A DNA stretch of 63,434 bases from a virus. Made by a program: the position numbers and the translations under genes. This document shows positions 4,741-47,660 of this stretch, piece by piece (positions within the stretch are counted from its first letter, which is position 1; each line of letters starts with the position of its first letter). The stretch is from positions 1-63,434 of IMG/VR virus record IMGVR_UViG_3300020446_000010. The stretch is one strand, 5' to 3'. Under the pieces are notes generated by a model. It did not search any database. It had not been told where the DNA came from and saw nothing but the letters and a program-made list of their open reading frames with translations.

Positions 4741-4887
4741 ATGTGCAGCCAGTGCTATGAAGAATTTGAAAACGGATATGATTATAGAATGCACTGGGAA
4801 AAAGAACATTTCTATCCTTATGTAAAAAAGAACGGATTTAACTATAAGCAAGCACAAAAAGACAGAAAAAGGAAATATGATTCATAA
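4741..4887 (+). CDS. C2H2 zinc-finger microprotein (48 aa)
   Basis: Begins MCSQCYEEFENGYDY and contains Cys-x2-Cys-x12-His-x4-His, the spacing of a classical C2H2 zinc finger (first Cys at residue 2, last His at residue 20). The C-terminus is strongly basic (QKDRKRKYDS), which suggests nucleic-acid contact. A GTG at 4723, six nt after the previous gene, would add six residues. It overlaps the next gene by 11 nt. The motif is visible; DNA or RNA binding is inferred. Confidence 0.5.
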   Translation: MCSQCYEEFENGYDYRMHWEKEHFYPYVKKNGFNYKQAQKDRKRKYDS

Positions 4888-5032
4888 AATTCAAAAAACT
4901 ATATTTGGAACATACAGAGTTTTATGGAAAGCTAATGATGGTATTAGAGCAGGTCATGAAGATTTTAATACAGAAAACGAAGCAAACAACTTTGCAAAAA
5001 AATTAACTGATGACTGGAACTATACTGTATGA
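4877..5032 (+). CDS. Small hypothetical protein (51 aa)
   Basis: Starts inside the end of the zinc-finger ORF (11-nt overlap) and ends one base before the next likely start. The sequence begins MIHKIQKTIFGTYRVLWKAN and looks like a small beta-hairpin plus helix protein. Tight packing supports translation; no function can be assigned. Confidence 0.5.
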   Translation: MIHKIQKTIFGTYRVLWKANDGIRAGHEDFNTENEANNFAKKLTDDWNYTV

Positions 5033-5033
5033 T

Positions 5034-5816: not shown

Positions 5817-6057
5817 AAATATATTATTAAAAAGAATAGAAGAACAGATAACTAACGATGTTGGTATAATCTACACTAAATCTTTAGATAAAAACATAAG
5901 ATACGCAAAAGCTGAGGTAGTTCAGTCAGGAGAAAGTGTTGATGTTTGCAAAAATAAAGATGTAATTTATTTTGACGTGGCTCAATCTAGTGAAATTAGG
6001 ATTGAGGAGAAAAAATATATAGTAATAGACGAAAAAGCAATAGTAGCAATAATATGA
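5800..6057 (+). CDS. groES: GroES-like co-chaperonin (85 aa)
   Basis: Single GroES-fold domain of near-canonical length. It has an N-terminal VIGKNILLKRIEE strand, a short mobile-loop region with GIIYTKSL, a central AEVVQSGESV turn, a KDVIYFD strand, and a C-terminal KKYIVIDEKAIVAII strand. It is divergent from host GroES, but the order of strands and the terminal ILAI-like segment are clear. It presumably caps the phage GroEL encoded upstream in the same operon. It overlaps the preceding gene by 17 nt and the following one by 4 nt (ATGA). Confidence 0.8.
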   Translation: MKVIGKNILLKRIEEQITNDVGIIYTKSLDKNIRYAKAEVVQSGESVDVCKNKDVIYFDVAQSSEIRIEEKKYIVIDEKAIVAII

Positions 6058-12427: not shown

Positions 12428-14872
12428 ATGGCAAGGTTATCTCAGTATCCAAAAGACACATCACCAGATAAACTGGACAGCTTTCTAACGCTAGATAGCA
12501 CTTCAGGAAACACCACAAGATTAGATATTCAAGATATTGCTGGTGTTATTGCGGATAGTGACCTTATAGATACTGCGGATTCTGCCCTATTTCAATATCA
12601 AACACCAAACGACCTTAATTACACTGTAAAACAAGATGGTCTAATTGTTTTAAATCCTGTTGGCACAAACGCCACAAGACTTTTTAGCACAATAACACAG
12701 CTTTATGTTTCTAAATCAGGATTTAACGGTAAAAATATTAGCACATATCTTTCTGACCTTAACGGGTATCAAATTAAAGTAAGTAAGCTAGGTGATTTAA
12801 ATGTATTTGGGATATTTGAGGTTACACAAGCTGTAGACTACACAGACCACTACATAAGACTAGCTGTAATTTATAGAGATAGAGGAAGTGGTTCTCTAGA
12901 ATATGGAGCAAAATACTATATAAGTCATCACCAAACGTCCTTTGACAATGACTTTAGTGATAATTCTGTAACTGAATTTGGAGATGTATCTGATGCAGGC
13001 TCAGGTTATATTATAACTGATGGAGAAAGAGCTAGAGTAAATGAGGTTACTTCTAAAATATTTTATTCTGATATTGTAGATGATTTAACATCCAATATTG
13101 CTAATAAACCTCTTTCTGCAAATCAAGGTCTTGTATTAAAGCAGTTTATTGATAACATAAACACATTATTGACATCAGATAATGTAGACTTAAACTCACT
13201 ACAAGAGGTAGTTGATTTTATAGAAGCTAATAAAACAATATTAGACACCTTAACCATTAGTAATATTGCTGGATTGCAAACTGCTTTAGATAGTAAAGTG
13301 GATAAGGTTGCTGGAAAACAACTGTCAGAAAATGATTTTACAAGCGCACTGCTTGCAAAGTTGAACGGAATAGCGTTAGGAGCAGAAGTAAATGTTCAGT
13401 CTAATTATACTGAAACTGACCCAGCTAATGATAGTTTTATATTAAACAAGCCTTCAGATGTAACAGACCTTTCCATACATTCTGTTACAGAACTAAATGA
13501 TATATCATCAACAGGTTCTGGTGCTATTATAACAGATGGAGAAAGAGGGGCTATAAACGGTTTAGTTAACACAACTAGCTCAAGCACGACTGTTCAAACT
13601 AATGACTTATTAAAAATAGGAACTATTGCTGAGTTTGTAAGCTCACAACCAGTAGAGCCATCTAATAATAATGCTATATATTATACGACTGAAGATGGTC
13701 ATGATGTTTTACAATTTAAAAATCATGGTCACAGAATAAGCATGGATTCTATTGTGAGCAACCTTTCTTCAGGTCTTTTATCTGGAGGAGGTATATCTAG
13801 CTCAAGTGCTACAGAATTTACTGTTGCAGCAGGTCATGGTGTAATTCTTGACATGAATAAAGAACAAGCATCAGTAGACCCACATCCTGAACTTAAAAAT
13901 ATAGCATGGTCAGCGTATACGGCTACCGTAAGTGGTTTAGATGTAAATGACACAAACGATAAACAAACTTGGATATATGTTGACGAGACTGGTACAGTAC
14001 AACAACAAAACACACCATTCACTGACGCACAATACAATAATACAATTCCTTTAGGTGCAGTAATTCATAGAGCTGGTAATGTTAGATTTGGGAAGTCTTT
14101 CCCAAGAACAGCTTATGGTCAACAAAATCAATTTGCAGAATTTGCAAGAATATTCGGTCCTCTCAAAAAGAGTGGTCACGAATTGTCTGGAGTTGCAGGC
14201 ACATTACAAATAGCGAGAAGCCAAGGTGTTTCTTTTGCATTTGGAAGAAACTACGCAACAGACCCAAACAATCCATCTTTTGTTACAGATAGCGGACAAA
14301 CACCAGCGTTAATACATAGGTATTATCAAGATGGTTCAGGTGGATTTATAAAAGACACTAACAGTGGTTCAGGCTATACTACTTTAGATATAGACAAATA
14401 TGATGATGGTTCTGGAACACTTGCTACATTAAGTAACAACAAATTCTCAACACAAAGAGTTTATTACTTCCCAAACAATCCTACAAGTATTATTGTTTAC
14501 TACGGAAGGCAAGAATTTGATACATTAGATGCTGCTAACACAAGCATACAAGCAGAGCCGTTTACAGAAGCAAAAAATACAGCGAATCAAGCTATATTTT
14601 TAGGATATGTAATTGCGGAAAAAGGAGCTACAGATTTAACTAGCACAACAAACGTTAGAATACTTAATGCTGGCATTTTTAGAAGCGTAGCATTTAGCTC
14701 TACAGGAGCAGCAGCTTCTGCGGCAAATTTAGCAGATTTGGCAGACACAACAATACAGTCACCTGCTAATGGACAATTATTAGAATACAGTTCAACAACA
14801 CAAACTTGGAATAACATAACACCAAACTTTAATCAGAATGCTATGGCAATGGCTGTGGCGTTAGGGGGATAA
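12428..14872 (+). CDS. Tail fibre-like protein (814 aa)
   Basis: Contains sequence typical of phage fibres: an N-terminal SQYPKDTSPDKLDSFLTLDS attachment-like segment, then repeats such as SVTEFGDVSDAGSGYIITDGER (residues ~180-200) and SVTELNDISSTGSGAIITDGER (~355-375). Between them is SALLAKLNGIALGAEVNVQ followed by YTETDPANDSFILNKP, a well-known trimeric fibre repeat. The C-terminal region (~440-800) is beta-rich with Gly/Ser/Asn and may carry a receptor-binding part. No enzymatic motif is seen. It is followed 16 nt later by the 1943-aa tail protein. Confidence 0.75.
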   Translation: MARLSQYPKDTSPDKLDSFLTLDSTSGNTTRLDIQDIAGVIADSDLIDTADSALFQYQTPNDLNYTVKQDGLIVLNPVGTNATRLFSTITQLYVSKSGFNGKNISTYLSDLNGYQIKVSKLGDLNVFGIFEVTQAVDYTDHYIRLAVIYRDRGSGSLEYGAKYYISHHQTSFDNDFSDNSVTEFGDVSDAGSGYIITDGERARVNEVTSKIFYSDIVDDLTSNIANKPLSANQGLVLKQFIDNINTLLTSDNVDLNSLQEVVDFIEANKTILDTLTISNIAGLQTALDSKVDKVAGKQLSENDFTSALLAKLNGIALGAEVNVQSNYTETDPANDSFILNKPSDVTDLSIHSVTELNDISSTGSGAIITDGERGAINGLVNTTSSSTTVQTNDLLKIGTIAEFVSSQPVEPSNNNAIYYTTEDGHDVLQFKNHGHRISMDSIVSNLSSGLLSGGGISSSSATEFTVAAGHGVILDMNKEQASVDPHPELKNIAWSAYTATVSGLDVNDTNDKQTWIYVDETGTVQQQNTPFTDAQYNNTIPLGAVIHRAGNVRFGKSFPRTAYGQQNQFAEFARIFGPLKKSGHELSGVAGTLQIARSQGVSFAFGRNYATDPNNPSFVTDSGQTPALIHRYYQDGSGGFIKDTNSGSGYTTLDIDKYDDGSGTLATLSNNKFSTQRVYYFPNNPTSIIVYYGRQEFDTLDAANTSIQAEPFTEAKNTANQAIFLGYVIAEKGATDLTSTTNVRILNAGIFRSVAFSSTGAAASAANLADLADTTIQSPANGQLLEYSSTTQTWNNITPNFNQNAMAMAVALGG

Positions 14873-31813: not shown

Positions 31814-34800
31814 ATGAGATTAAGAAACACTTTTATTGGTGGCAAAATGAACAAAGACGTAGATGAACGTCTTGTTCCAGATGGTCAGTATAGAGATGCT
31901 GAGAACATCAAAGTTGCTATGTCTAATAGTTCTGACGTTGGCGCCTTAGAGAATGTGCTGTCAAATCAACAAAAATCTTTTTTAAATACAGGAGATAATG
32001 CTGAAACAATAGGTAGTGCAGCTGTCGAATACACTAATTGCGTTTATTGGTTTGTAAAGTCTGACACATCTAGCGCTGTTTATGAATACAATATTACTAC
32101 TGATTTGCAAAGAATAATATTGCTAGACACCAGAACAGGTTCAGACAATGTATTAAATTTTACTAAAGAAAATAGAATAAACAATGTAGACACTGTAGTT
32201 GACACTGATAACGGTAAGATATTTATATTCTGGACAGATGGACTTAATCCTCCTAGAAAAATAGAAATAGATAGAGCAGCTGGATATGGAGAAAATAATT
32301 TTACAGATGAAGACATTAGTGTTATTGTAAAACCTCCACTGCATAGACCTACGTTTACTTTGTCTGCAACAAACACAGCTGACGAAAATTACATCAAAGA
32401 CAAATTTTTGCAGTTTTCATATAGATATAAATACGTAGACAATCAATATTCAGCTATATCTCCATTTAGCAATCCTGCATTCGAACCCTATCCTTTTAAA
32501 TATAACTACGGACTAAATAGCAATGAGTCATTTGTTAATAGGTATAATGTTGTAAACCTAACAGTAAACTCAGGAAGCCACCTAGTTAAAGAAGTTGAAG
32601 TCTTATATAAAGAAGCTGGTAAAACAAATTTATATGTTGTAGAATCATACAACAAAGAAAAGAAAACTTGGGATGACAATACTGATTATGTAGTTACATT
32701 CCAAAACAAAAAGATAAGCAAGATACTTCCAGAGAGTCAAATTAAAAGAATATTTGATGCTGTGCCAAGAAAAGCTTTTTCACAAACATTTATTGGTAAT
32801 AGATTGATTTATGGAAATTACACAGAAAACTGGAATCTTATTGATGAGTTAGGCGGTGAAATAAAACCTGACTTTACTGCTTCTGTTTTAACAAATGAAT
32901 TTGCTACTGCACCATACACAACCATGAAGTCTGGTAGAGACTACGAAGTTGGTATAGTGTATTTAGATGATTATGGCAGAACTACAACAGTTCTTACCTC
33001 TGATGGAAATAGCGTTTTTGTACCAAACGAAAATTCATTATATCAATCTAAACTGCAAGTTGAGATAAGAAGCAAAGCTCCTGTATGGGCAAAGTATTTT
33101 AGATTTTTTGTCAAAGAAAGCAAACTGCCATACGACATAGTTATTCCTACAAGATTTTATGTTGATGGAGCTTATGTGTGGATAGAATTAACTGGTAGTG
33201 ACGTTAACAAAGTAGAAAAAGGAACACGTTTAGTAGTAAAAGCAGACACTTCTGGACCTGTAAAAGGATATGTAGAAACAGAAGTCTTAGACCTACAAAC
33301 ACAAACAGTAAACTTTTTAGAGCCTGACCCAACAGTAGCAGAGCTAGAACAAAAAGCAGGATTGTATTATAAGATAAGACCAAAAGGGTTTACTTTCAAT
33401 AATAATGCAGTAGAAATATATGAGTTTGAATCGAATCACAGCACAAGAGATAGAAGGGAAGATATGATAGACAGGGGCGATAAGCTTCAATATTTTAGCG
33501 ACCCAATACCTTATCTATCTGAATCAACTACACTTGCTGGGAACTCATTATCTAGGTCAGGAACTAATATAGCTCCGAGAGATATTAGATATAAAATAAT
33601 AATAGATGCCGTAGGAGATGGCATTACAACTTACGATGAGTTTAGAGTTGAATATGAAGACAACGGAGTTGCTTACGCTCAACCAGCTGTAACAATTACA
33701 GGAAGTAGTCAAACTATAACTAACGGGCTTAGTGTGAACTTTAGCTCTCGTTCTGGTCACACTGTTGGTGATTATTGGATGATTAGCGGTTATGGTAAAG
33801 AGCCTTTGAACTTTGGGAATCGTGACAGGTCTCATGCTTTGTTTAGAGGAGAACCTGGCAATGAAGTTATTGAGGCAGGGTCAATAGTAGAAATAGAATA
33901 TATCGAATCACAAAAAGCTGGTGACGGATATAGCAATAGTTTTACAGAATCATACACTTCAAGCAGTAAATATGCAAACTTAGAAGAGTGGTATTACGGA
34001 GAAAACCTTTCTGGATTTGGTCCAGGAGTAACAGATGCCCAAGTATTTTTTAGGCATGTTAACTTGACTCCTAATCACGGAGGTGAAGGGGATACTGCTT
34101 ACAAAGTGCAGGTACAGCAAAACGGAACTATGTGTATGATAATCCAAAGTAAACAAAGGCAATGGAATGAGAGAAATGCAAGGTCGAGAGTTTACACAAC
34201 GGGATTATTAGAAATTAAGTCATCAGATAGTTTACCTATTTTTGAAACTAAAGGAATAGAAAAAGATTCAGATATATTTTTTGAAGTTGGAGACACTTAT
34301 GAGTTATCAGAGAATGACACTTTTCATGTTGGTAAAGCAGGTGATGTTCCTCAATCTTTTACTTCTCCTGCTGTAATTACAATAGACGCACATAACGCAT
34401 GGGCTTGGGGTAATGGATATGAGTCAATAAAAATTAAAGACTTATTCAATAATCCAACATTTACTTTTGACACAAGACCAAGCACGTTTATAGAAAGCTA
34501 TAGAGAAAATAACAGAGTAGCTTCTTTAACTTACTCTGGTGTTTACGAGCAAAGCACAAATTTTAATGCCTTAAATGAATTTAATTTATCTACGGCAAAC
34601 TTTAAAGATATAGATGACGCTTTAGGTAGTATACAAAAAATAGTATCACGAGATAATGATATTGTTGTGTTTCAAGAAAACAAAATATCTAAACTCCTCT
34701 TTAATAAAAATATTATATTCAACACTGACGGTTCAGGCAATATATCACAAACTAAAAATGTATTAGGAACTATAACTCCTTATACAGGAGAATTTGGTGT

Positions 34801-35722
34801 TGGACTAAATCCTGAAAGTGTTTGTAAATATGGAAACGTAATATATTTTGCAGACACAAGTAGAGGCTTTGTGTTTAGACTATCTAACGATGGATTAACT
34901 CAAATATCACAGTATGGCATGGCAAACTATTTTAGAAGCGAATTGCCTGTGCGTGATTTAAACAAGACTTTAGGTGGATACAATCCAAGAGACGGAGAGT
35001 ATATTTTGTCTTTACAAGGAGGAACAGAGTCTACAGACACTTTATTGTGGGTTGGAGATGAATATACATGTGAACAAACATTCGTTGATGATGTAGTAGA
35101 ATGGAGAGGTAGCGATGCTGTATGTCTTGTTTCTTGTTATGGAGAATGGAAGCCATCTGACATAGTAAGTGACGGTCAAGATTGGAGAATAGACGAATAT
35201 TATTGTGAGCAAGAAGAGCAAAGACCAACACCTGCTCCAATTCCTACACCAGCTCCAGCACCTACACCAGTACCTGTTGTTGTGCCTTCGCCATCGCCAG
35301 TACCAGTACCTACACCAGTGCCAGTTGTAGTTCCTAATCCAACACCTTCACCAGCACCGACACCAGCGCCTGTAGCGGACTTACCACCATCGCCAACACC
35401 TAGTCCTACTCCGTCACCTACGCCAGCACCCGTGGTAATTCCAACGCCTAGTCCTACGCCTAGTCCTACGCCTGCGCCAGCGCCTACACCTACACCAACA
35501 CCAGCGCCAGCAAGCCCAACAGCATTTAGGTTAAACCCATGTAACCCGTTTGGTAGTTATGGTAAGAAAATAGCATTTGACTCTGGTCTGTATGTCGGAG
35601 CTGTGGTTACAATAGAAGATGGAAACTGTTATGCGGTTAGTGCTGCTATCACTGATACTGCTAATTCTACGGTATCTCAGATTTTCTTAAATTGTTATAA
35701 TTGTACTAATGGAATATTTTAA
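31814..35722 (+). CDS. Stabilisation/muzzle-type tail protein fused to proline-rich C-terminal extension (1302 aa)
   Basis: The N-terminus ([19 protein letters not shown]...[12 protein letters not shown]) is the hallmark of the large stabilisation/muzzle protein of crAss-like podoviruses. The muzzle-like body spans about residues 1-1085. Near 1090-1135 are [11 protein letters not shown] and [13 protein letters not shown], echoed in the 585-aa adhesin ([14 protein letters not shown]). Residues ~1137-1235 are a [T/A/S/V]-Pro repeat linker, and the last ~65 residues form a Cys-containing cap domain ([14 protein letters not shown]...[10 protein letters not shown]). The fusion of a tail-body protein to an adhesin-style linker and domain is unusual. 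The linker is a candidate substrate for the prolyl hydroxylase at 41249. Confidence 0.78.
35224..35514 (+). repeat. [T/A/S/V]-Pro repeat tract, muzzle protein C-terminus
   Basis: About 97 codons alternating Pro with Thr, Ala, Ser, Val, Ile or Asn. At DNA level these are imperfect 6-nt units such as CCTACA, CCAGCA and CCTAGT. Confidence 0.9.
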
Positions 35723-37507
35723 ATGAGTAATACAGGAACAAAAATAGTGACAAGATTAAGACTGTTTAAAGACGGTTTAGCAACTAGCAAGACAAAAGCA
35801 AATGTTGAGGGAGATAAATATTATGTTGCTCCATTTGAAGACTTGGTAGATTGCAACCCTCTTGGACCACCTGCACCTGTACCTACTCCTACTCCTGCGC
35901 CAGTTGCTGTACCAGCTACACCACCTGCACCTACACCTATTCCAATAGCAGTGCCTACGCCTTCGCCTACGCCTACGCCTAGTCCATCGCCTATTCCTGC
36001 GCCTGTACCTAATCCATCACCAAGTCCAACACCTGCACCTGCACCAATTCCTGTAGCTACTACACCGACACCAACTCCAGCACCAGTGCCAAGCCCTGTG
36101 CCTACACCAGCGCCAGCTGTAGCACCAACTCCTGCACCAGTTATGCCTACTCCTGCACCTGTGCCTGCTGCACCGACTCCTACACCAACACCAGCTCCAG
36201 CTCCAACAACTAATACTGAAAGTGTTTGGTCGGCAAATGCATTAAGCATTAATCAAGGAGTCTATAATGGAGATGTTTCCATAAGTGATGCGGAACAAAC
36301 AATATTTGGTCCTGTGAACAGTGGATATGATACAGTAACAGCTTTATATTTTAGTGACGATTCTGGATTTTTAAATACCGCTCAGTCTATTATAGAATCA
36401 AGTAATGCTGGCGGAACTATAACTGCTTACTTAAATCAAAATCAACAGGTTCCAATACAAGTAAATCAGGCAGCTCCTTACTTTGCTATAAACGATGTAG
36501 GTGGAGGCTCACAAGCGCCAATAAGAAGTGCACAACTTGTAGTTAAAATAGGAGCAGATAGCACCTTACAGATTATAAGTGGTTCTGATTTATTCCATGA
36601 AATAAGTCCTCTTAACCCTGTACCTTCTCCAGTTGCAGCGCCAGTAGCAGCAGATGTGTGTTTAACTAATCCTGCTGCTGTAACAATACAAAGTATTGGA
36701 GGCAGTAATAAATATGTATTTGGAGGCACACATGGTCACTATAAAACATCAGTAGGAACCTTCGTATTAACAAACGTCCCTAGCGGTCACCCTATTGCAA
36801 TTCTAAATAGTGGCAAAGAAACCCTTATAAGTTATACTGGTACTTATAATGCTGGTTCAAAAGGTATAAATAATGTTTATCATGATTATTATTATGGAGA
36901 CGTTACTATTACTGTAAACGGAGATTACGGAACAGTTAGCTATGATTGCTTAAATCATGGATATATGGGAGGTGAAAACAACTTAACATACGATAATGTC
37001 ACTTGTTCAGCGCCTACACCAGTGCCAGCAGCACCTACACCAATACCTGTAGGAGCTCCTATAGCAGCTCCACAAGCTGTAACTCCTGTTCCACAGCCTA
37101 CACCTGCACCTACACCAGCTCCTGTGCCTACACCTGCTCCAGTTAATCCAACTTATGCCTTATCGCAAAGCTCAACGATTAACGTACAGGGCATGTATAT
37201 GAACGGAACACTTTGGTATTATTTCGGCACTTACGGTAGCGATAGTTATAGGTTTAGCGCAACTACAGGAACATATACATTCAACATTCCTCAAGCACAC
37301 CCTATTGCTTTCTATACAGCAGGAACAACAAACAGTTACAGTGGAGGTACTGTACAAGGAACTAAAAACGGATTAGATGGAAACAGCTATGATTATAGAT
37401 ATGGAACAGTAACATTAACAATAAATGATACAAGCGCAACACCAGTGACTTATGAGTGCTTCTTCCATGGTTACATGGGAGGATTAAACAATCTCATATT
37501 AGTATAA
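35723..37507 (+). CDS. Modular adhesin 1: docking module, Pro-rich linker, two cupredoxin-like domains
   Basis: 594 residues. Residues 1-46 ([17 protein letters not shown]...VDCNP) are the shared docking module. Residues 47-166 are a [T/A/S/V]-Pro linker. Residues ~170-300 are a beta-rich domain unique to this protein. Two homologous domains follow. In copy 1 (~310-427) His356 precedes Cys409-x2-His412-x2-Met415 ([10 protein letters not shown]); in copy 2 (~475-594) His526 precedes Cys579-x2-His582-x2-Met585 ([10 protein letters not shown]). The His-to-Cys distance is 53 in both. This resembles a type-1 copper cupredoxin site, though with a shorter Cys-His-Met loop than plastocyanin. A second Pro linker (~431-474) separates the copies. 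Likely a virion surface protein; metal binding is inferred. Confidence 0.7.
35861..36209 (+). repeat. [T/A/S/V]-Pro repeat tract, adhesin 1
   Basis: About 116 codons of Pro alternating mainly with Thr, Ala, Ser and Val. A second, shorter tract is at about 37012-37146. Confidence 0.9.
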
Positions 37508-37511
37508 CAAT

Positions 37512-37519
37512 TATCTTTG
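37512..37519 (+). promoter_or_regulatory. Candidate -7 promoter element before adhesin 2
   Basis: TATCTTTG in the 23-nt gap between adhesin 1 and adhesin 2, ending 11 nt before the ATG. No -33 TTG at good spacing. Confidence 0.3.
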
Positions 37520-37530
37520 TATGATATAAA

Positions 37531-38502
37531 ATGGCAAATACAGGAAAAAAAATATTCACAACGATACGTCAATATATAAATGGCGTATTTACTGGTAATG
37601 AGAAGTTCAATAGCACTGACGACCCTGATTACCAACATCCTGTATATGATGATATTGAGTGCCCACTACCAGCTCCTCCTGTACCTAGCCCAATACCAAC
37701 ACCTAGCCCGATACCAACACCCAGCCCAGTGCCTGTTCCAGTACCAGCAGTAGTGGAAGTAGCTCCTAATCCAGCTCCTAATCCAGCGCCTGCTCCAACA
37801 CCTGCGCCTGTGCCTGTTGTTATTCCTACACCAGCACCAGTTCCAAACCCAGCACCAGCACCACAACCAGCACCAACACCCGCTCCTACGCCAGTTCCTG
37901 CACCTGCACCTGCCGCTACTCAAATGCAGTATATTATTTTAGGACACGGAAACACTCCAGAGGCTGCTTGTACAGATACAGGTGCTGACTTGTTTTATAT
38001 TGATGGAGGACAGCTTGCTACATCAATGAACGTATATTACGATGAATGGGGATTAACTTTTGCTCAACCACAGTATTATGCTGAAGGTAATGTTGTTAGA
38101 TACTGGAATGGTCAACAATTTACGAGTTATGCAGATTGCAATACTCCAACACCAACTCCTAACGCTCCAACACCTATACCTGTAGCGGCACCAACGGCTA
38201 GCTGTGGAACCAATATGTATTATATAAGCACAGGCAAGTTCTACGAAAGTGAGTTCTGCGCAGGCGTTTTTGGACAAACACAGAATTATCCAATAAGTAT
38301 GGCGGTTACCTCAAATTACCCTGGCAGTGTAAACGCACAACTAGGAGCTCAGCTTTGTTATAATGGACAGCCATTTAGCGGAAATGGATTTGCATACTTA
38401 ATGAGTAGCTTCCCTAGCAGTTTTAATGGAAACGGAAGCCATTCTACTGTAAGAATTAATGATGATGGTATAGTTACCGCAGTTAAATTTATGACTTGTT
38501 AA
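37531..38502 (+). CDS. Modular adhesin 2: docking module, Pro-rich linker, '[10 protein letters not shown]' and 'LGAQ' domains
   Basis: 323 residues. Docking module 1-46 (ANTGKKIFTTIRQYINGVF...DIECP); Pro linker ~47-130. Domain A (~132-203) contains [20 protein letters not shown] and WNGQQFTSYADC, and is also found in adhesin 5. After a short TPTPNAPTP linker, domain B (~224-323) contains VNAQLGAQLCYNGQPFSGN and STVRINDDGIVTAVKFMTC, and is also found in adhesin 3. Both domains begin and end near Cys residues, so disulfides are possible. It probably binds host surface glycans or proteins; this is inferred from architecture. Confidence 0.7.
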   Translation: MANTGKKIFTTIRQYINGVFTGNEKFNSTDDPDYQHPVYDDIECPLPAPPVPSPIPTPSPIPTPSPVPVPVPAVVEVAPNPAPNPAPAPTPAPVPVVIPTPAPVPNPAPAPQPAPTPAPTPVPAPAPAATQMQYIILGHGNTPEAACTDTGADLFYIDGGQLATSMNVYYDEWGLTFAQPQYYAEGNVVRYWNGQQFTSYADCNTPTPTPNAPTPIPVAAPTASCGTNMYYISTGKFYESEFCAGVFGQTQNYPISMAVTSNYPGSVNAQLGAQLCYNGQPFSGNGFAYLMSSFPSSFNGNGSHSTVRINDDGIVTAVKFMTC

Positions 38503-38503
38503 T

Positions 38504-39256
38504 ATGGCAAATACAGGAAGTAAAATATACACAACACTGAGGCTCATAAAAAATGGAGTAAGGACTGTACACGTTAAACCAAACGTGCCAGAAGACCCTA
38601 ATTTTATACCTCCTTTTACAGATTTAGCAGATTGCTTTACTAATGCTCCTGCACCTGCGCCAGTTCCTGTACCTACACCTGCGCCTGTACCTAACCCCGT
38701 TCCAGCTCCAGGACCAGCGCCTACACCAGTACCTGCTCCAAGCACAATAGTACCAACACCAAGCCCAACCCCAGCGCCAGTTTCAGGCGTTGTGCCGACA
38801 CCTAGTCCTTCGCCAGTTCCTGCCCCAACAGTTCCTTCGCCAGTTGGAGGTGGTTCGACTTACTACTTAAGTGCGCCTAGACAAACTGCTGGAGAGTTAT
38901 GTACAGCTGCATTCTCAATAGTTATGAGAGTACAAGTTACAGCTTCATCAGTTTCAACATCGTTAGGTGCGCAAGTAACTAAAGATGGAACTAGATTTGC
39001 TGGTAATAATAAATATTATGCAATGGATAGATACAATCTTGACACAACACAATCAGGAACAACATGGTTGGCTGTGCAAATTGACAATGATGGTATTATA
39101 CAAGACATAATTAAAATAGACTGTGGGGACTTTGCTTTCTATGACGGTTCAGGAGGATGGGATGCTCCAGACCCATACAATACACAACCACAAGATGATG
39201 GAGACCTTGTATATTATTATAAAAATGTAATGCAAGGAGGTGGACAAAATTTATAA
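38504..39256 (+). CDS. Modular adhesin 3: docking module, Pro-rich linker, 'LGAQ' domain, acidic tail
   Basis: 250 residues. Docking module 1-46 (ANTGSKIYTTLRLIKNGVR...LADC), linker ~47-121 of [P/A/T/V/S] repeats, then one domain (~123-206). That domain contains VSTSLGAQVTKDGTRFAGN and LAVQIDNDGIIQDIIKIDC and is homologous to domain B of adhesin 2. The last ~44 residues are acidic and aromatic (GGWDAPDPYNTQPQDDGDLVY). The gene starts one base after the stop of adhesin 2. Confidence 0.7.
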   Translation: MANTGSKIYTTLRLIKNGVRTVHVKPNVPEDPNFIPPFTDLADCFTNAPAPAPVPVPTPAPVPNPVPAPGPAPTPVPAPSTIVPTPSPTPAPVSGVVPTPSPSPVPAPTVPSPVGGGSTYYLSAPRQTAGELCTAAFSIVMRVQVTASSVSTSLGAQVTKDGTRFAGNNKYYAMDRYNLDTTQSGTTWLAVQIDNDGIIQDIIKIDCGDFAFYDGSGGWDAPDPYNTQPQDDGDLVYYYKNVMQGGGQNL

Positions 39257-39258
39257 AT

Positions 39259-39441
39259 ATGAGCTATACAGGAAAAAAATATTATACAAAATTAAGAAAG
39301 TTCGTAAACGGAAAACCAACACAACAAGTGAAGGAAAATTTGATTACGGACCCAGATTATATAAAACCTTATGATGATATAAATGGATGCCCAAAAGGCA
39401 CGTCTTCGCCTGCACCAGTTGCAGCGCCAACGACATATTAA
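39259..39441 (+). CDS. Docking-module-only protein (adhesin 4, possibly truncated)
   Basis: 60 residues consisting almost only of the docking module (SYTGKKYYTKLRKFVNGKP...DINGCPKG) and a stub of linker (SSPAPVAAPTTY). It may be a remnant left by recombination in the repeat tract, or a functional plug or competitor for the docking site. Starts two nt after adhesin 3 stops. Confidence 0.6.
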   Translation: MSYTGKKYYTKLRKFVNGKPTQQVKENLITDPDYIKPYDDINGCPKGTSSPAPVAAPTTY

Positions 39442-39447
39442 TTAATT

Positions 39448-41205
39448 ATGGGAGAGAAGTACAGTAAAATAAGAAAATACGTAAATGGCTTTCCAAAGCA
39501 AGACCAAGCCATCAATAGCCCTAACGAGCCAGGGTACATACCGCCTGTTTATGATGCAGGTCCATGTACTACATGTGAGCCAGAGGACGATGGTGATGTT
39601 ATTGAATGGAGAGGTCATGCTTTTTACTGTGAGCAAGAAGACGCTCCTACGCCTACTCCTAGTCCTACACCTAGTCCTACGCCTAGTCCAACTCCTAGCC
39701 CTACACCTACGCCGACACCCACTCCAACACCCACTCCGACACCTAGTCCGAGTCCAGTTCCTGCGCCAAATCCTAGTCCAATACCAACTCCAGCACCTAC
39801 GCCAGCTCCTTCTGTAGGATATGTGTATTATACTGTTAATGATTGTGCAAACACTTTTAATGATGTTGTAAGAAGCACTTTTTCTTTAGATACAGGAAGT
39901 GTTGTGAAGGCTACAGGAGTGACTGGTTGTTTAGAAATAGGAAGTTTAACACAGCCATCAGGCACAAACACTGTATATGAAACTTACACTGATTGTACTG
40001 ATTGTGGCGGAACAACTCCTACTCCAACGCCAAGTCCAACACCTAGCCCAATTCCAAATCCAACACCAAGTCCAACGCCTGCGCCTATTCCAAACCCAGC
40101 ACCTATTCCTACGCCAGCGCCTTCTGTAACGCCTGTAGTGCCTACACCTGTCCCACAACCTACGCCTACACCTATTCCAGGACCAGCGCCTACGCCTTCG
40201 CCTACCCCAACGCCAGCGCCTATTCCAATTCCTAATCCATCTCCAACACCAGCACCAGCATCAATACCGTGCTATGAGTTTGACATTGCAAATAATTCAA
40301 ACCCATTATTAGATGACTCATACACATACACGCAATGTGGTGGAGGAACAACTTCAGGAGCAGTATTCTATGGAGATGCAATAACTGTTTGTGGTACATC
40401 CTTCACTCATGTAGGTGCAGGATTAACTGTAACAAACACACTTGTTCCTTGTAGTGGAAGCCCTACTCCTAGCCCAACACCAGCGCCTACTCCTAGCCCA
40501 ACGCCAGCACCAACACCTGCGCCAGTCGCAAATCTTAACTATGTTGGATTAGGTAATGCAAACAGCGCTTCGGCTGCTTGTAGCGACAACTTAAATGACA
40601 TGTTCTATATAGATGGTGGACAGTTAGCTACTGCAACAGGAATTTATTATGATGCTGCGGGACAAAATCCTGCACAAGATACGCACTACACAGATGGAAA
40701 TGGATTCTATGTTGTTTGGAACGGCTCATCTATTACAAGCCTATCGTCTTGTCCTTCAGGACCTGCGCCAACATCTCCTAGTCCAATATATATACCACCT
40801 ACACCGAACCCTACGCCTGTAGCACCTACTCCTAATCCTACGCCAGCACCAACACCAGTAGCGCCTACACCAAATCCAACGCCCGCTCCTGCACCGCAGC
40901 CGACACCAGCTCCTGCACCGCAGCCGACACCAGCTCCTGCGCCCACGCCTACGCCTGCACCGCAGCCAGCGCCTACGCCTTCGCCTACTCCAGCTCCAGC
41001 TGCTGTAGCTTCTTATAGAGTTGAGGTTCAAAAACAATCAGGAGTTAGCTACATGATATTTACATACACCAATTCTTATGGACAGGCTCAATACAAAAAT
41101 AGTTCAAACTCCTATGAGTATGTGTGTGCGCAAGGAGGTACAGTTCAGGCAATGTCAGGAGTACAGTCCCAGCAGAACCTATACACAAGTTGCGTTGGTA
41201 ATTAA
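39448..41205 (+). CDS. Modular adhesin 5: docking module and four small domains joined by Pro-rich linkers (585 aa)
   Basis: Docking module ~1-38 ([17 protein letters not shown]...PPVYDAGP), then [14 protein letters not shown] (~52-66), shared with the muzzle protein C-terminal region. Four domains follow, separated by long [T/S/A]-Pro linkers. Domain 1 (~127-190) has [12 protein letters not shown] and ends TDCTDC. Domain 2 (~272-335) has [12 protein letters not shown] and ends TLVPC. Domain 3 (~363-435) has [17 protein letters not shown], homologous to domain A of adhesin 2. Domain 4 (~523-585) begins [17 protein letters not shown] and ends SCVGN. Most domains are bounded by Cys. It is the last adhesin and ends 43 nt before the prolyl-hydroxylase gene. 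Confidence 0.7.
39640..41007 (+). repeat. Four [T/S/A]-Pro repeat tracts of adhesin 5
   Basis: Tracts at about 39640-39810, 40018-40258, 40459-40527 and 40756-41007, made of imperfect hexamers such as CCTACG, CCAACA and CCTAGT. They separate the Cys-bounded domains. Confidence 0.88.
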
Positions 41206-41248: not shown

Positions 41249-42514
41249 ATGTTCACAGAAATACCAAATTTTCTCACTCATGATGAGTGCGATTTATTTA
41301 TACAATTAATAGAAAAACAAAACACCCGTTCACAAGTTGCTGGAAGTGGAAGTGATAATTCTAAAATAGAAGATAGTAGAACTTCTTACACTTCTAATTT
41401 TGGCGATAATATGTTACTTCCAAAAGCTCTAAAAGACAGGATTGCAGCTCATTTAGACATAGATGTTGCAAGGGGCGAAACATTACAAGGTCAAAAATAC
41501 GAAGTAGGTCAATATTTTAGACCACATTTAGATTGGTTTCAAGGTGATGCATATAACAATCATTGTTTGCATTCTGGAAACAGAACTCACACTTTTATGT
41601 TGTATCTAAATGATGGTTTTGAAGGTGGAGGAACTGATTTTCCAAACTTAGGTAAAACTGTAAAACCAGAAAAAGGAAAAGCTGTAGTTTGGCGCAACAT
41701 GGATGATAATGGTAATGGTATTTCTGACGTTATGCATGAGGGTATGGATGTAACTAAAGGAACTAAATACATAGTTACAAGTTGGTGGAGAGAAAAAGAA
41801 TTTAATGGTGCTGAAAACGAAAGACTTGCAAGAGAATTTCATGAAGCACAAAAGAAAGAACAAGAATCTAAGATTGTAAATATAAATCCAAATATAAAAA
41901 CATTTAAAACTGTAGATGAAATACCTAGGTTTACAGATAATGGATTTATGAAGGCTAAAGTGCCTCAAGATGTGTGGGGTATAATTCAAGACTCATATCA
42001 CATGTTAAAAGATAAAGAGGTTGCAGAACATTTTTCAGGAAAAGAAGGTATTATAGATACAATAGTTACTGATGCGGAAAGCAGCACACTTTTAAGTTTT
42101 GAACATATACCAAACATTAGAACTCAAATACATAAAATGCTCATGCCGTTACATGAAGAGTGGGCAAAAACAAGACTAGAACCATCTTTCGTATATGGTA
42201 TAAGGTCTTATCAAAGGGGAGCTACGTTAGCAAAACACGTTGATAGAATAGCTACTCATCATATATCTACTATTATTATTGTAGACAAAGACTTAAAGTG
42301 CGGTTGTCAAACTAAAGAGTTTGGTGATGATTGGGCTTTAGATATACAGGGTCATGACGGTCAGTGGTATGAAGTTTTTGCTGAGCCAGGAGAGATGATA
42401 TTGTACGAATCTGCTGTTTGTGAACACGGTAGAGACAAACCTTTTCAGGGAACAAGCTTTAAAAACTTTTACACACACTACAAGTTAGTGGATTACCAGT
42501 ATGCGGGACAATAA
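41249..42514 (+). CDS. Prolyl-4-hydroxylase-type 2OG/Fe(II) oxygenase with two oxygenase domains
   Basis: 421 residues. Domain 1 (~1-182) is a typical P4H/2OG-FeII oxygenase: His93-x-Asp95 (FRPHLDWF), distal His163 (MHEGMDVTKGTKY) and Lys173, the expected 2OG ligand, followed by TSWWR. LYLNDGFEGGGTDFP is the standard P4H beta-strand signature. Domain 2 (~225-421) is a second, more divergent oxygenase with His330-x-Asp332 (AKHVDRIATHH) and distal His393 (CEHGRD). Enzymes of domain 1's family hydroxylate prolyl residues using 2-oxoglutarate and O2. The gene directly follows five Pro-repeat adhesins and overlaps the next gene by 14 nt, so the adhesin linkers are the obvious candidate substrate. 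This is inferred. Confidence 0.85.
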   Translation: MFTEIPNFLTHDECDLFIQLIEKQNTRSQVAGSGSDNSKIEDSRTSYTSNFGDNMLLPKALKDRIAAHLDIDVARGETLQGQKYEVGQYFRPHLDWFQGDAYNNHCLHSGNRTHTFMLYLNDGFEGGGTDFPNLGKTVKPEKGKAVVWRNMDDNGNGISDVMHEGMDVTKGTKYIVTSWWREKEFNGAENERLAREFHEAQKKEQESKIVNINPNIKTFKTVDEIPRFTDNGFMKAKVPQDVWGIIQDSYHMLKDKEVAEHFSGKEGIIDTIVTDAESSTLLSFEHIPNIRTQIHKMLMPLHEEWAKTRLEPSFVYGIRSYQRGATLAKHVDRIATHHISTIIIVDKDLKCGCQTKEFGDDWALDIQGHDGQWYEVFAEPGEMILYESAVCEHGRDKPFQGTSFKNFYTHYKLVDYQYAGQ

Positions 42515-45071
42515 ATACATTTCTTTTGACCCGTGGTGGGGTGGTTTTTCTAACATAAGAATGACGTATGAATTAGTAGGAGCTTTATCTGTTATAACTG
42601 GTAGGACAATAATTTTACCTCACAAAATATATTGTTTATTCTTATCAGAATGGCAAGATAAAAAAACATGGTTTGACATGTTTGATGCTTTAGATAAAAA
42701 AAAATTTAGAAAGCATTTTGATTGTATAGAATATTATGACATTCCAGAATATGAAAATCTTGAAAACGATACGCAATATTTCGAAAATATTTCGTCTGTT
42801 GCGAAAGTTATTACTTTTGGCGACAAAGACGGACAACTAGGTCCTATGAAAGGTCCTGGTAACGATTATGTCTTAACATGTGGCATAGAGGACCATAGCG
42901 AGTTTAACATTTTTAAAGACGACAGACAAGTCATAGACTTAGAGTGTGATGATAAGTTCATGCACTTTCCAAGAAACTTGTTCGGTCATTTTTATTATCA
43001 TGTATATGGCAAAACACCTGTTATTAGAAACAGGATAAAAGAGAAAGTAAACTTAGGGATACAGTATAGACCTGATATTTTTGAGAAAGCTAAAAAGATT
43101 ACAGACAAACTAGGTGAATTTAATGCTATTCATGTTAGAAGAAATGACTTTTTGCAGGTAAGAAAAGATATTGCAGAGCGTCAAACAGTAAATCTTCTAG
43201 ATGATATTTCTAACAGAATACCTAACGACAAGCCTTTATTTATAGCTACAGACGAAAAAGACAAGTCTGTATTTTTGCCATTAAAAAAGAAATACAACGT
43301 ATTATATCTAACTGATTTTCCACAATCAGGAGTAAACGATACTGACGATTTGCTTTTAGACCAAGTTGTATGCTCTCAAGCAGATATTTTTTTAGGTAGT
43401 CATCTATCGACTTTTTCTGACTACGTAAACATTATTAGAGGTCAGCAAAATAAAAAAGATTTTCACAGAGAAGGAACTAACTTTAACAGACCTAAAATAA
43501 CATATAACAGATTTCCATGGGAAGTAGAAGAGTATGGATGGGATAAAACGTGGAGTTTTCATTGGGAATATGAACAATCATACTTTAACATAGCCGTATA
43601 TGGGTCTCACAACGCTTCTGTTGCGTTATCCCACAAAGCTGATGTTCTTGAGGTAGTAGAGTTAGAAAGGTTTGTAAATAAGAAAAACGCAGCTTTTTAT
43701 TTTCATTTTCCAGAAGAAAACCCAGACGATTTGACTTTGCAAATACATAATTATTTTGTTAAAAAATATGGTAGTTATGTGTATGATAATTGCTTATACA
43801 ATAGCTGTCTAACTAATATAAACGTTTTGCCTGCTAAAAACTTTGAGTGGGTAGGACATCATCTTGCTCATGTAAACAATGTTATATTCCAATCGCCAGC
43901 GAAAAAAAGTTTAAATATATCTTTTGATGGGGGCTCTGATGAAGGGCATTTTAATATATATAGAACTGAAGAAGATAAGGTGCCAGAAAAAATATTTTCT
44001 ACAAAACAAGATATATGCGTTCCCTATGCTGCTGTAGCCCACTATCTGTCTCCAATAAAACAAGAAGAAAATTGGTGGTGGGGTAACTTGGTATATGCAG
44101 GTAAGCTTATGGGACTGTCTGCATACGGGACAGTAAATCAAGATGACTATGATAAAATGTATCGCTACTTTAAGATGCAACAAACAGATAATGTAAATAC
44201 AGCGCATGAAAACTTCCAAAGAATATTTAATGTAAGTCCTGAAAAAAGATTTGATGAAGAAAAATCTTACGACTTAGCCGCTGCTACACAAAAAGTTTTT
44301 GAGGATATATTTAAAGAAACTATAGACCCTTTTGTTGAGACGCATAAAGATTATGAGTTACAGTTTAGTGGAGGTGGTGCCTTAAATGTTATAAACAACG
44401 CTAAATGGGATGCTTTTGTTAGTCCTAATCCTGACGATAGAGGATTATCTGTAGGGATGTTGTTTCATAAAATAAAACCTGGTCATGTTGTTGACACAAA
44501 ATATTTAGGCTCAGAAATGTTTGGTATGTATACACAACACAAACCATACAGCATTGACGAGATGTGTGAGGATTTAGTAGAAGGCAAAATAATTGGTTTA
44601 TGTCAAGGGCGTGGAGAGCACGGAGCAAGAGCTTTGTGTAATAGAAGCATACTATGTCTGCCTAAAAAAGGTTTCAAAGAAAAACTTAATGACCAAGTAA
44701 AACATAGAGAGGCTTTCCGACCTTTCGCACCTGTATGTAGAAAGGAGGATGCTAACACGTGGTTTGATTTTGGAAAACACACTGAATATATGAGCCACAA
44801 CGCAACAGTTAAAAATGTAAATAAAAGTATACAATCTATAATACACAAAGACTATACCGCTAGGTTACAAACAGTCACCTCGTCATCAAATCCTTTTGTT
44901 TATTTACTTTTAACTAGAATGAAAGAATTAGGTCATGAGCCAATATTAATAAACACATCGTTTAATGTAATGGGAAAACCTATAATAAATCAGTGGCAGG
45001 AAGCTATAAGTATGCTGAATGATACTGGATTAGATATATTAACTGACGGCAAAAGTAAAATTTATGGATAG
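42501..45071 (+). CDS. O-fucosyltransferase-like / carbamoyltransferase fusion
   Basis: 856 residues. The N-terminal ~340 residues resemble GT-B O-fucosyltransferases: FDPWWGGFSNIRMTYEL at the start, the GDP-sugar-binding HVRRNDF (211-217), FIATDEKD and IFLGSHLSTFSDY. From ~361 to 856 is a complete NodU/TobZ-type carbamoyltransferase: GSHNASVAL, GHHLAHV (~453), SFDGGSDEGH (~473), GKLMGLSAYG, the YrdC-like QGRGEHGARALCNRSIL (~702), KHREAFRPFAPV, and SFNVMGKPI (~820). The carbamoyl part would use carbamoyl phosphate and ATP to carbamoylate a sugar hydroxyl. The fusion suggests a sugar is transferred and then carbamoylated. Overlaps both neighbours (14 nt and 8 nt). Confidence 0.82.
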   Translation: MRDNKYISFDPWWGGFSNIRMTYELVGALSVITGRTIILPHKIYCLFLSEWQDKKTWFDMFDALDKKKFRKHFDCIEYYDIPEYENLENDTQYFENISSVAKVITFGDKDGQLGPMKGPGNDYVLTCGIEDHSEFNIFKDDRQVIDLECDDKFMHFPRNLFGHFYYHVYGKTPVIRNRIKEKVNLGIQYRPDIFEKAKKITDKLGEFNAIHVRRNDFLQVRKDIAERQTVNLLDDISNRIPNDKPLFIATDEKDKSVFLPLKKKYNVLYLTDFPQSGVNDTDDLLLDQVVCSQADIFLGSHLSTFSDYVNIIRGQQNKKDFHREGTNFNRPKITYNRFPWEVEEYGWDKTWSFHWEYEQSYFNIAVYGSHNASVALSHKADVLEVVELERFVNKKNAAFYFHFPEENPDDLTLQIHNYFVKKYGSYVYDNCLYNSCLTNINVLPAKNFEWVGHHLAHVNNVIFQSPAKKSLNISFDGGSDEGHFNIYRTEEDKVPEKIFSTKQDICVPYAAVAHYLSPIKQEENWWWGNLVYAGKLMGLSAYGTVNQDDYDKMYRYFKMQQTDNVNTAHENFQRIFNVSPEKRFDEEKSYDLAAATQKVFEDIFKETIDPFVETHKDYELQFSGGGALNVINNAKWDAFVSPNPDDRGLSVGMLFHKIKPGHVVDTKYLGSEMFGMYTQHKPYSIDEMCEDLVEGKIIGLCQGRGEHGARALCNRSILCLPKKGFKEKLNDQVKHREAFRPFAPVCRKEDANTWFDFGKHTEYMSHNATVKNVNKSIQSIIHKDYTARLQTVTSSSNPFVYLLLTRMKELGHEPILINTSFNVMGKPIINQWQEAISMLNDTGLDILTDGKSKIYG

Positions 45072-45918
45072 AATATTTTTAAGCATAGCATCATACAGAG
45101 ACCCAGACTTAATAAACACAATAAAAGACGCACACAAAAGGGCTGACAGACCTGATAGAATAACATTTGGAGTGTTGTTTCAGGGCACTAAAGAAGAGAT
45201 GAACACTTTTCTTTCAGAAGCCGTAGGAAAAATGAATGTTAAATATGTGCACCATAACGATACAAAAGGAACAGGATGGGCAAGAAATATTCTTACAAGA
45301 GACATGCTTGAGGATGAAGAGTATTGGTTGCAAATAGATTCACACACAAGATTTATTGAAGGATGGGACACAAAGCTTATTAATTTATATAATAAAATAG
45401 GAGAAGATTGTCTTATATCAGCATACCCTCCACACTTCGGAATGAACGAACCCTATGATGTATATACAACTAAAACCCTAAACAACAAAGCTTTAGTAGA
45501 GGGCTTTACCGATGTGTTCAGTTTTGAAAACACTGTAGGAAAAATTCCTGAGCAAGAATATGAAGAGTCAATAACGGCTGCGGGGGCTTTTCAGTTTACA
45601 AAAAGACATGTAGCAAAGTCTATGACGTTCGATGCATATTTTAATCCATGGATGGACCAAGAAATTTCTTCTTGTTTGGCATGGATGAATGGATTTAACA
45701 TTTATGCGCCTAGAGATGCTATATTGTGGCACTGTTATGAAGATAATCATATAGGGTCTAATGAAAAATGGAGAGGTTTGGTAGCTGACGAAGTTAAAGT
45801 TACTGGTTACGAAGACAAGCCCTTTGATATTATAAAACACTGGCATACAAAGAGAAACTGGAATCAGTGGAAAGATAGGGTTCTTGTAGATATTAATGAT
45901 TTAAAAAAAGAAAAATGA
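45064..45918 (+). CDS. Glycosyltransferase of the Skp1/hydroxyproline GlcNAc-transferase (GT60-like) family
   Basis: 284 residues with the full family signature: IFLSIASYRDPDLINTIKDA (4-23), FGVLFQG, TKGTGWARNIL (67-77), YWLQIDSHTRFIEGWD (87-102) with metal-binding Asp92 and His94, SAYPPHFGM, and later TAAGAFQFTKRHV and DAILWHCYEDNH. In Dictyostelium and Toxoplasma this family adds the first sugar to hydroxyproline on Skp1 after a prolyl hydroxylase has acted. Its position in the same operon as a P4H is therefore notable. The donor sugar used by the phage enzyme is unknown. Overlaps neighbours by 8 and 4 nt. Confidence 0.85.
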   Translation: MDRIFLSIASYRDPDLINTIKDAHKRADRPDRITFGVLFQGTKEEMNTFLSEAVGKMNVKYVHHNDTKGTGWARNILTRDMLEDEEYWLQIDSHTRFIEGWDTKLINLYNKIGEDCLISAYPPHFGMNEPYDVYTTKTLNNKALVEGFTDVFSFENTVGKIPEQEYEESITAAGAFQFTKRHVAKSMTFDAYFNPWMDQEISSCLAWMNGFNIYAPRDAILWHCYEDNHIGSNEKWRGLVADEVKVTGYEDKPFDIIKHWHTKRNWNQWKDRVLVDINDLKKEK

Positions 45919-46898
45919 AAACAGCTTTAGTTTTAGGTGGTGGAGGCTTTATAGGCTCACACCTTGTTAAAAGGTTAAAAGAGGAAGGATATTTTGTTAG
46001 AGCAGTAGACCTAAAAAAACCTGAATTTTGGGACACAGCAGCGGATGACTTTATTATAGGAGATTTGAGGTGGAGTCATATATGCTCTGCCGCATTCAGA
46101 CCTCTAGAAGAGCTTAGAAAGTTTGACGAAGTATATCAGCTTGCTGCGGACATGGGTGGCGCTGGTTATTTATTTACTGGTGATAGTGATGCTGATATTA
46201 TGCATAATTCTGCTTTGATTAACATGAATGTATTAAGAGAGTGTGTTGTTGAAGAGCACGCTCCTGGTAAAATATTTTACGCAAGTAGCGCTTGTGTGTA
46301 TCCAGAGTACAATCAGTTAGACCCAGAAAGCCCAAAATGTACAGAAGACAGTGTATATCCTGCTGAACCTGACTCTGAATATGGATGGGAAAAATTATTT
46401 AGTGAAAGAATGTATATGGCTTTTGCAAGAAATAAAAACTTAAATGTAAGGATAGGGAGGTTTCATGGAATCTTTGGACCATACGGAACATGGACTGACG
46501 GAAAAGAAAAGGCTCCTGCTGCAATATGTAGAAAAGTTGCAGAATCAAACGATAGCATAGAAATATGGGGAGATGGAGAACAAACTAGGTCGTTTATGTA
46601 TATAGACGATGCTATTGATACAGTGCGTAGGTTCATGGAGAATGAAGGATTTCAAGGACCAATGAATATAGGTTCTGAAGAAATGGTGTCTATAAATAAC
46701 TATGCACGCATAGTAATGGATGTTGCTAAAAAAGATTTAGATATTGTACACATAGATGGACCTCAGGGAGTCAGAGGAAGGAACTCAGATAACACGCTGA
46801 TGGAGCAAGAATTAAACTGGACTCCAGGGGGTAGTCTCAAAGATGGCGTAGAAAAAACCTACCAATGGATTGAAGAGCAGGTGCAAAAACTGTCTTAG
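45915..46898 (+). CDS. GDP-mannose 3,5-epimerase-like NAD(P)-dependent epimerase
   Basis: 327 residues, extended SDR family. The Rossmann motif GGGGFIG is at 8-14. Signatures match plant GDP-mannose 3,5-epimerase closely: AADMGGAGYLF, YASSACVYPE with Cys127 (plant Cys145), YGWEK with Tyr156/Lys160, RIGRFHGIFGPYGTW, GKEKAPAAICRK with Lys199 (plant Lys217), GDGEQTRSFMYIDD, NIGSEEMVSIN and GPQGVRGRNSDN. The plant enzyme makes GDP-L-galactose (and GDP-L-gulose) from GDP-mannose. Here it would feed a GDP-sugar to the fucosyltransferase-like domain encoded two genes upstream. Starts in an ATGA overlap. Confidence 0.88.
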   Translation: MKTALVLGGGGFIGSHLVKRLKEEGYFVRAVDLKKPEFWDTAADDFIIGDLRWSHICSAAFRPLEELRKFDEVYQLAADMGGAGYLFTGDSDADIMHNSALINMNVLRECVVEEHAPGKIFYASSACVYPEYNQLDPESPKCTEDSVYPAEPDSEYGWEKLFSERMYMAFARNKNLNVRIGRFHGIFGPYGTWTDGKEKAPAAICRKVAESNDSIEIWGDGEQTRSFMYIDDAIDTVRRFMENEGFQGPMNIGSEEMVSINNYARIVMDVAKKDLDIVHIDGPQGVRGRNSDNTLMEQELNWTPGGSLKDGVEKTYQWIEEQVQKLS

Positions 46899-46919: not shown

Positions 46920-47660
46920 ATGGCAAACTACGAGAACAAAACAGTTGGGTTTAGTGAAATAAATAACGGCTGGACGTCATTTTATTCTTACATTCCTGAA
47001 GATATGGTCTACATGAAGTCAGACTTTTACACTTTTAAGGGCGGTAATATATACAAACATAACATTGATGACGCTTCTCGTAACAAATTTTACGATAAAT
47101 ATTATCCTAGCAAGGTTGAAACTATCATAAATGATGACCCAGAAGCTGTGAAAAACTTTAGAACTCTTAATATGGAAGGCTCTTCTGCTTTCTGGAGAGT
47201 AGAAATAAACACAGACTTAGATAAAGGCGGAGCAACTTATGATGATTTTGAAGAGAGAGAGCGATTATTTAAAGCTCACATCAGAACTGACAGAGACGAC
47301 AATCTTAACTTAGAAAGACTTACTGTGCAAGGGCTAGGTACACTAATATCTACAAATGGCACATCTATGTATTTTAGATTTATAGACAACGCCATTGAGT
47401 ATGGTGACTTCGTTTATAAAATATATGGTAAATCGTATACGTATTTAGGTAAAATTATTGCTGTATTTGAAGATTATATTATGTTAGACTCTATAGCTGA
47501 CCCAGTAGACCCTGGTCAATTTTGTTTTGCTACAAAAGACCCAGTGATAGAAAGCTATGGATTGAAAGGATATTTTGGCAGCTTTACGTGTACAAGTTAT
47601 GAATCAACTCCAATAGAATTGTTTGCAGTTGGTACAGAAGTAACGCAAAGCAGTAAATAA
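46920..47660 (+). CDS. Tail/muzzle-associated structural protein (246 aa)
   Basis: Begins ANYENKTVGFSEINNGWTSFYSYIPEDMVYM, followed by YTFKGGNIYKHN, a YPSKVETIINDDPEAVKNF segment and RTLNMEGSSAFW. I recognise the NGW.SF.S..PE....YTFK.G..Y.HN / NDDPE.VKNF..LN.EG pattern from crAss-like and other Bacteroidetes podoviruses, where it occurs in tail-muzzle proteins. The C-terminal half is beta-rich. It follows the modification operon and resumes the structural gene order. Confidence 0.7.
   Translation: MANYENKTVGFSEINNGWTSFYSYIPEDMVYMKSDFYTFKGGNIYKHNIDDASRNKFYDKYYPSKVETIINDDPEAVKNFRTLNMEGSSAFWRVEINTDLDKGGATYDDFEERERLFKAHIRTDRDDNLNLERLTVQGLGTLISTNGTSMYFRFIDNAIEYGDFVYKIYGKSYTYLGKIIAVFEDYIMLDSIADPVDPGQFCFATKDPVIESYGLKGYFGSFTCTSYESTPIELFAVGTEVTQSSK

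Follow-up and report, generated by a model that had tools for sequence, protein, structure and literature searches.

Five consecutive ORFs, which cover positions 35723 to 41205 of the window (the whole stretch of 63,434 nucleotides of viral DNA that was analysed; it comes from a marine crAss-like phage), start in the same way, and this raises the question of where on the phage proteins with such a common start would be attached. The five ORFs, separated by gaps of 0 to 23 nt, are:

35723-37507, + strand: ORF1, 594 aa; module at 35723-35857, Pro-rich linker, one further domain, two putative cupredoxin-like domains
37531-38502, + strand: ORF2, 323 aa; module at 37531-37668, Pro-rich linker, two domains in common with ORF5 and ORF3
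38504-39256, + strand: ORF3, 250 aa; module at 38504-38638, Pro-rich linker, C-terminal domain in common with ORF2
39259-39441, + strand: ORF4, 60 aa; bare module
39448-41205, + strand: ORF5, 585 aa; shortened module at 39454-39573, own W(x)6C motif at 39607-39630, Pro-rich linkers, four small domains

An earlier note on this DNA had claimed that the five ORFs open with one N-terminal pattern and then diverge through Pro-rich linkers into different C-terminal domains. The first half of the claim is borne out. Alignment of the five starts gave a 45-residue module with the consensus MxNTGxKIYTxLRxxxNGxxTxxxKxNxxxDPxYIxPxxDxxxC, in which eight positions besides the initiator Met are invariant (G5, K7, R13, G18, N27, P37, D40 and C44); the ORF5 copy is shortened and lacks NTG. 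When each copy in turn was left out, the profile built from the others recovered it with E values of 9e-13 (ORF1), 7e-16 (ORF2), 1e-18 (ORF3), 1e-16 (ORF4) and 3e-8 (ORF5). The same profiles found no further module in the window, the best match outside the array having an E value of at least 0.028. The second half of the claim applies to four ORFs and not to five, since ORF4 is a bare module; the combination by which a shared anchor is recognised, namely a homologous N-terminal module with divergent C-terminal parts, is accordingly present in four of the five. The module is always N-terminal in the window, and internal in 23 of the 104 non-redundant copies from other phages.

The array is not an artefact, because three independent IMG/VR contigs (L011, L012 and L100) have the same five-gene order, bare module included; it is kept in part in L093. 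Bare modules orthologous to ORF4 are present in all four of these contigs, and further bare modules were found in L115 and L119. Read-through of the stop codon between ORF4 and ORF5 was considered as well: the two are in one frame in the window but in different frames in L093, so that this is not a conserved arrangement.

With the Pro-rich linkers masked, ORF2 and ORF5 have a 67-residue domain in common (49% identity), and ORF2 and ORF3 a C-terminal domain (26% identity). ORF1 contains a duplicated domain (residues 311-425 and 481-594, 45% identity) with H and C-x2-H-x2-M, which we label cupredoxin-like from these motifs and which would be a putative copper binder. No arm domain gave a firm match above threshold in Pfam or PHROG; a GLEYA match in ORF1 (E = 0.012) was below the family cut-off and was set aside. 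The five proteins resemble tentaclins in being phage adhesins with a conserved anchoring domain, but tentaclins have a C-type lectin domain at the N-terminus and are anchored by an Ig domain at the C-terminus (PMC10743442). This assignment was rejected, given that the N-terminus is here the 45-aa module and that no C-type lectin or Ig match was obtained with Pfam or PHROG.

The ORF that precedes the array (31814-35722, 1302 aa) encodes a crAss muzzle, or tail-tip protein (PF25731 crAss_MUZ, E = 1.9e-18; phrog_14478, E = 4e-259). In crassviruses, the muzzle is a hexamer at the tail tip. The best cultured relatives of the window muzzle are Cellulophaga phages such as phi38:1, at about 40-41% identity. 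Its parts are placed as follows:

31814-35020, + strand: muzzle N-terminal part, residues 1-1069, aligned to residues 2-1076 of phi38:1 gp097
35021-35218, + strand: muzzle C-tail after split site A, with three W(x)6C motifs (by PSSM)
35219-35722, + strand: the muzzle's own Pro-rich arm and a small Cys-rich end domain (from the sequence and the domain listing)
46920-47660, + strand: muzzle C-terminal part, a separate 246-aa gene (PF25729 crAss_MUZ_C, E = 1.3e-12)

The break follows residue 1069 of the muzzle; the final 244 residues are encoded by a gene of their own that lies 11.9 kb downstream, and its product aligned to residues 1079-1321 of phi38:1 gp097 (E = 5e-23) and matched elemo (E = 2e-30). 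In phi38:1, Gundel and elemo, the parts form a single chain, and comparison with these relatives establishes that the muzzle is split. As in the crassvirus muzzle (phiCrAss001 gp44; PF25731, PF25729), the two products together match the family from end to end; the difference is that the window gene is split before the C-terminal domain, so that the one continuous polypeptide, usual for a crAss muzzle though not formally defining, is not found there. Within the gap are the tail and arm that belong to the muzzle itself, the genes of the five module proteins and those of four enzymes. Both the identity of the muzzle and that of its C-terminal part were settled with Pfam profiles, single-sequence searches of the PDB having yielded Pro-rich or chance matches only. 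The parts of the crAss001 structure paper that deal with these proteins describe a muzzle whose length varies because sequence is inserted in its crass and IG2 regions, and fibres attached at the collar via residues 1-26 of gp22 (PMC10172136). Elsewhere in the window, an 814-aa protein (12428-14872) matched Phage_fiber_rpt (PF22337, E = 3.9e-7), and a fibre of the conventional kind, lacking the module, may therefore be present as well. The muzzle of Maribacter phage Panino (L002, 14778-15180) is annotated as two ORFs owing to a frame break within the core; this is possibly a sequencing error and is distinct from the split described here.

Comparison of the window with L012 bears on the exchange of arms. 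The muzzle cores of the two are 99.5% identical and the other arms 97.6 to 98.5%, whereas ORF2 is only 83% identical, and the ORF2 copy of L012 (15718-16707) is 93% identical to that of L011. This pattern shows replacement of ORF2 by recombination relative to L012, that is, an exchange of one arm between near-identical phages.

Three W(x)6C motifs follow immediately on the break in the muzzle (35048-35071, 35102-35125 and 35183-35206, with PSSM scores of 24.9, 21.2 and 30.1). ORF5 carries the fourth motif of the window, and none of the other window proteins reached a score of 12. The PSSM, built from 29 seed peptides, detected 213 copies over all loci, compared to 11 in reversed sequences; 145 of the 213 were in muzzle ORFs, which hold 10% of the residues. 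Among the loci split at site A, the motif was present on the muzzle tail in 17 of 17 with modules, and in none of the 24 without. Among 86 related muzzles, 33 had both motif and module, 50 had neither, three had the motif only (with a loose pattern) and none had the module only. The muzzle tree needs about four changes to explain this distribution, and on it motif and module show no change in opposite directions. The perfect co-occurrence lacks statistical independence, however, because the tree allows only three to four independent comparisons, too few for significance (sign test, P = 0.25). Motif and module copy numbers are equal in many loci (2:2 or 1:1) but not in all (7:1 in L103, 6:1 in L118, 3:1 in L115, 4:5 in the window), so that gene number alone does not give the stoichiometry. 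Many phages have a single module protein only, and some (L115, L119) only a bare module. A large clade (L019-L059) has a muzzle split at site A, mostly with a tail of about 600 aa, and has neither motif nor module; the split thus exists without this proposed docking system.

A second break, inside the C-terminal domain of the muzzle, was found in L120, L127, L129 and L140. In these loci, the end of the muzzle ORF lies only a few residues from EWRGDTYEC, EWRGDTYECVQT or a closely similar peptide, and the next gene opens with the module. Motif and module also occur in one chain: 11 of the 23 internal modules come directly after a motif, among them those of four muzzle proteins (L145, L148, L154 and L185) and of two tail proteins other than the muzzle (L123 and L141); the other 12 have no preceding motif. 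L154 is a Pedobacter assembly contig with a split crAss-like muzzle and a module. In L149 (phage MA9V-3, which has a contractile tail, PMC13120357), L150 and L151, an anchor protein beside a gene that we call baseplate-J-like from reading its sequence, and not from a profile search, ends in three motifs, and module genes follow. The L149 anchor occupies 4276-5943, and its modules start at 5950, 6698 and 7053. L150 and L151 are Chitinophaga chromosomes, in which the module and anchor genes lie in contractile-type prophage-like loci. In L141, L149 and L150, the motif-module unit is repeated in tandem inside single chains. As far as can be read from these loci, contractile-tail phages repeat the anchor and module arrangement, and the module is exclusive neither to N-termini nor to crAss-like phages.

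Structure prediction of the fused unit of L145 with AlphaFold2 (81 alignment rows) gave one compact five-strand beta domain (pLDDT 93.2, pTM 0.74), in which the blocks that cover the motif and the module strands reached a pLDDT of 95-97. Foldseek found no solved relative of this unit, the best probability being 0.13. For a genuinely split pair, the muzzle end and module of L129 were modelled by reading across one stop codon, with the fused rows left out of the alignment; the best pLDDT was 74 (49-74 over five models) and the pTM 0.57. The split-pair model is weaker than that of the fused unit. One might guess, from their conservation, that the cysteines of motif and module form a disulfide.

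The remainder of the gap between the muzzle halves is filled by four enzyme genes:

41249-42514, + strand: prolyl 4-hydroxylase-like 2OG-Fe(II) oxygenase (PF13640, E = 1.2e-16)
42501-45071, + strand: fusion of an O-fucosyltransferase-like and a carbamoyltransferase part (PF10250, E = 5.9e-20; PF16861, E = 3.1e-51; PF02543, E = 4.3e-17)
45064-45918, + strand: GlcNAc-type glycosyltransferase (PF11397, E = 1.8e-33)
45915-46898, + strand: NAD-dependent sugar epimerase/dehydratase (PF01370, E = 1.3e-37)

The product of 41249-42514 matched solved prolyl 4-hydroxylases (P4Hs; 3itq/5hv0, E = 3e-24; 2jig, E = 2.7e-15), and the catalytic set of these enzymes, HxD, the distal His and Lys, is aligned in it, as expected of a 2OG-Fe(II) oxygenase. 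By its closest solved structures and its active-site alignment, it is a prolyl 4-hydroxylase, for which hydroxylation of proline is the predicted activity. The gene is present in 12 of 14 loci with Pro-rich arms versus 0 of 47 others, counts that include related phages; the two Pro-rich loci without it, L010 and L100, are contigs ending before the place. The P4H and the glycosyltransferases probably hydroxylate and glycosylate the Pro-rich linkers. Five loci (L103, L113, L116, L132 and L134) have Thr-rich instead of Pro-rich linkers and no P4H; they carry another conserved gene of about 300 aa (starting MKYICAQP), which is probably a glycosyltransferase. The use that viruses make of P4H has been called cryptic, and P4HA is among Baltic virus genes (PMC9301287). 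Like the viral P4Hs of PBCV-1 and the Baltic, the window gene is a clear family match with its catalytic residues, but it differs in going together with Pro-rich tail arms that the insert also encodes.

The earlier note had read the array as several interchangeable arms served by one attachment site. The split muzzle, the motif on its tail, the fused forms and the predicted fold of the fused domain all point to the muzzle tail as the docking place, and we consider it probable, at roughly two chances in three, that the W(x)6C tail is a socket and the module a plug that docks on it; a place in the virion and a role in adhesion would follow from this reading. A shared docking module on several muzzle arms is then the best reading of the array, now with evidence for the site, except that ORF4 would be a bare plug and not an arm. 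A single attachment site is probably wrong, with three socket motifs on the muzzle tail and a fourth on ORF5. The W(x)6C hairpin of the muzzle and the TG...C module of the arm would be two halves of one small domain, reassembled between proteins and possibly locked by a disulfide between the conserved cysteines. Each muzzle subunit might hold as many as three separate arms. ORF5 has a motif as well and could either occupy its own socket or make one available in turn, and ORF4 could cap a socket. The arms would be joined by stiff Pro-rich linkers, probably modified by the P4H and the glycosyltransferases encoded between the muzzle halves, and the small distal domains would contact the host surface and be exchangeable gene by gene.

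Other readings have to be weighed against the docking of arms on the muzzle. The motif and module might together be a spacer repeat of Bacteroidota phage adhesins, whose halves were separated by chance fragmentation while attachment occurs elsewhere or through other contacts; the tandem units within single chains and the 12 internal modules without a motif would fit. Chance fragmentation would not be expected to break the unit repeatedly between its halves, at two places in the muzzle and again in another tail machine, with the socket staying on the anchor upstream and the module opening the genes that follow, nor to conserve bare modules as genes, and we regard this explanation as unlikely. 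Still less probable is that the modules bind one another, by way of the conserved Cys or by pairing of strands, and build a fibre bundle of mixed composition that a single member such as ORF5 would attach, instead of each docking on the muzzle. That ORF5 has both halves and that the window has five modules for four sockets would agree with it, but module self-assembly cannot be the general function, because many phages have only one module protein, and L115 and L119 only a bare module.

The proteins might also be released or intracellular, as decoys or modifiers of the infected-cell surface, and not be virion parts at all. The neighbouring glycosylation enzymes could be taken in this sense; against it, the array genes lie between the two halves of a tail protein with gaps of no more than 23 nt, and four muzzle proteins of other loci contain the module within their own chain, which makes this reading very improbable. 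As for the split being an assembly or sequencing artefact, nothing beyond the metagenomic origin of the DNA speaks for it, and the same break with different inserts occurs in dozens of independent contigs; we give it hardly any weight.

Exchangeable phage adhesins with shared N-terminal anchors are already known. Tailspikes of Ackermannviridae and Klebsiella phages have shared anchors and modular exchange, and the shared-anchor receptor-binding proteins of such phages use whole anchor domains. The LtfA and LtfB proteins of the T5-like phage DT57C are branched adhesins: several receptor-binding proteins sit on each other or on a common anchor and are swapped as modules (PMC4728585). The window would resemble these systems in having several arms on a shared anchor, exchanged as modules, but differs in that its anchor looks like one half of a domain, the other half being supplied by a tail-tip peptide. 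In chaperone-usher pili, donor-strand complementation likewise completes a fold between two proteins; no sequence relation is claimed, and the phage halves, unlike these, are also fused in one chain and have conserved cysteines that suggest a disulfide. In an incomplete literature search, we found no description of a split muzzle that makes room for arms, or of a half-domain anchor completed by a tail-tip protein.

Host contact and changes of host range are poorly known in crAss-like phages, and a module array in a split muzzle is a plausible way of swapping host-contact arms one gene at a time. The motif and module would form a small binding pair open to bench testing, and with a socket motif this short and recognisable, sequence alone would reveal receptor arms in many Bacteroidota phages that have not been cultured. 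That a phage P4H goes together with Pro-rich arms suggests a specific candidate role for a gene whose use by viruses has been called cryptic. More tentatively, and at somewhat less than even odds, the socket and plug may be a general code of Bacteroidota phages, used on a crAss muzzle or a contractile baseplate, to which one marine group would have added hydroxyproline-glycosylated rod arms. If so, arms could be gained, exchanged or capped while the tail protein stays as it is, and the rod arms of the marine group, made by P4H and glycosyltransferases, would be reminiscent of plant cell-wall proteins.
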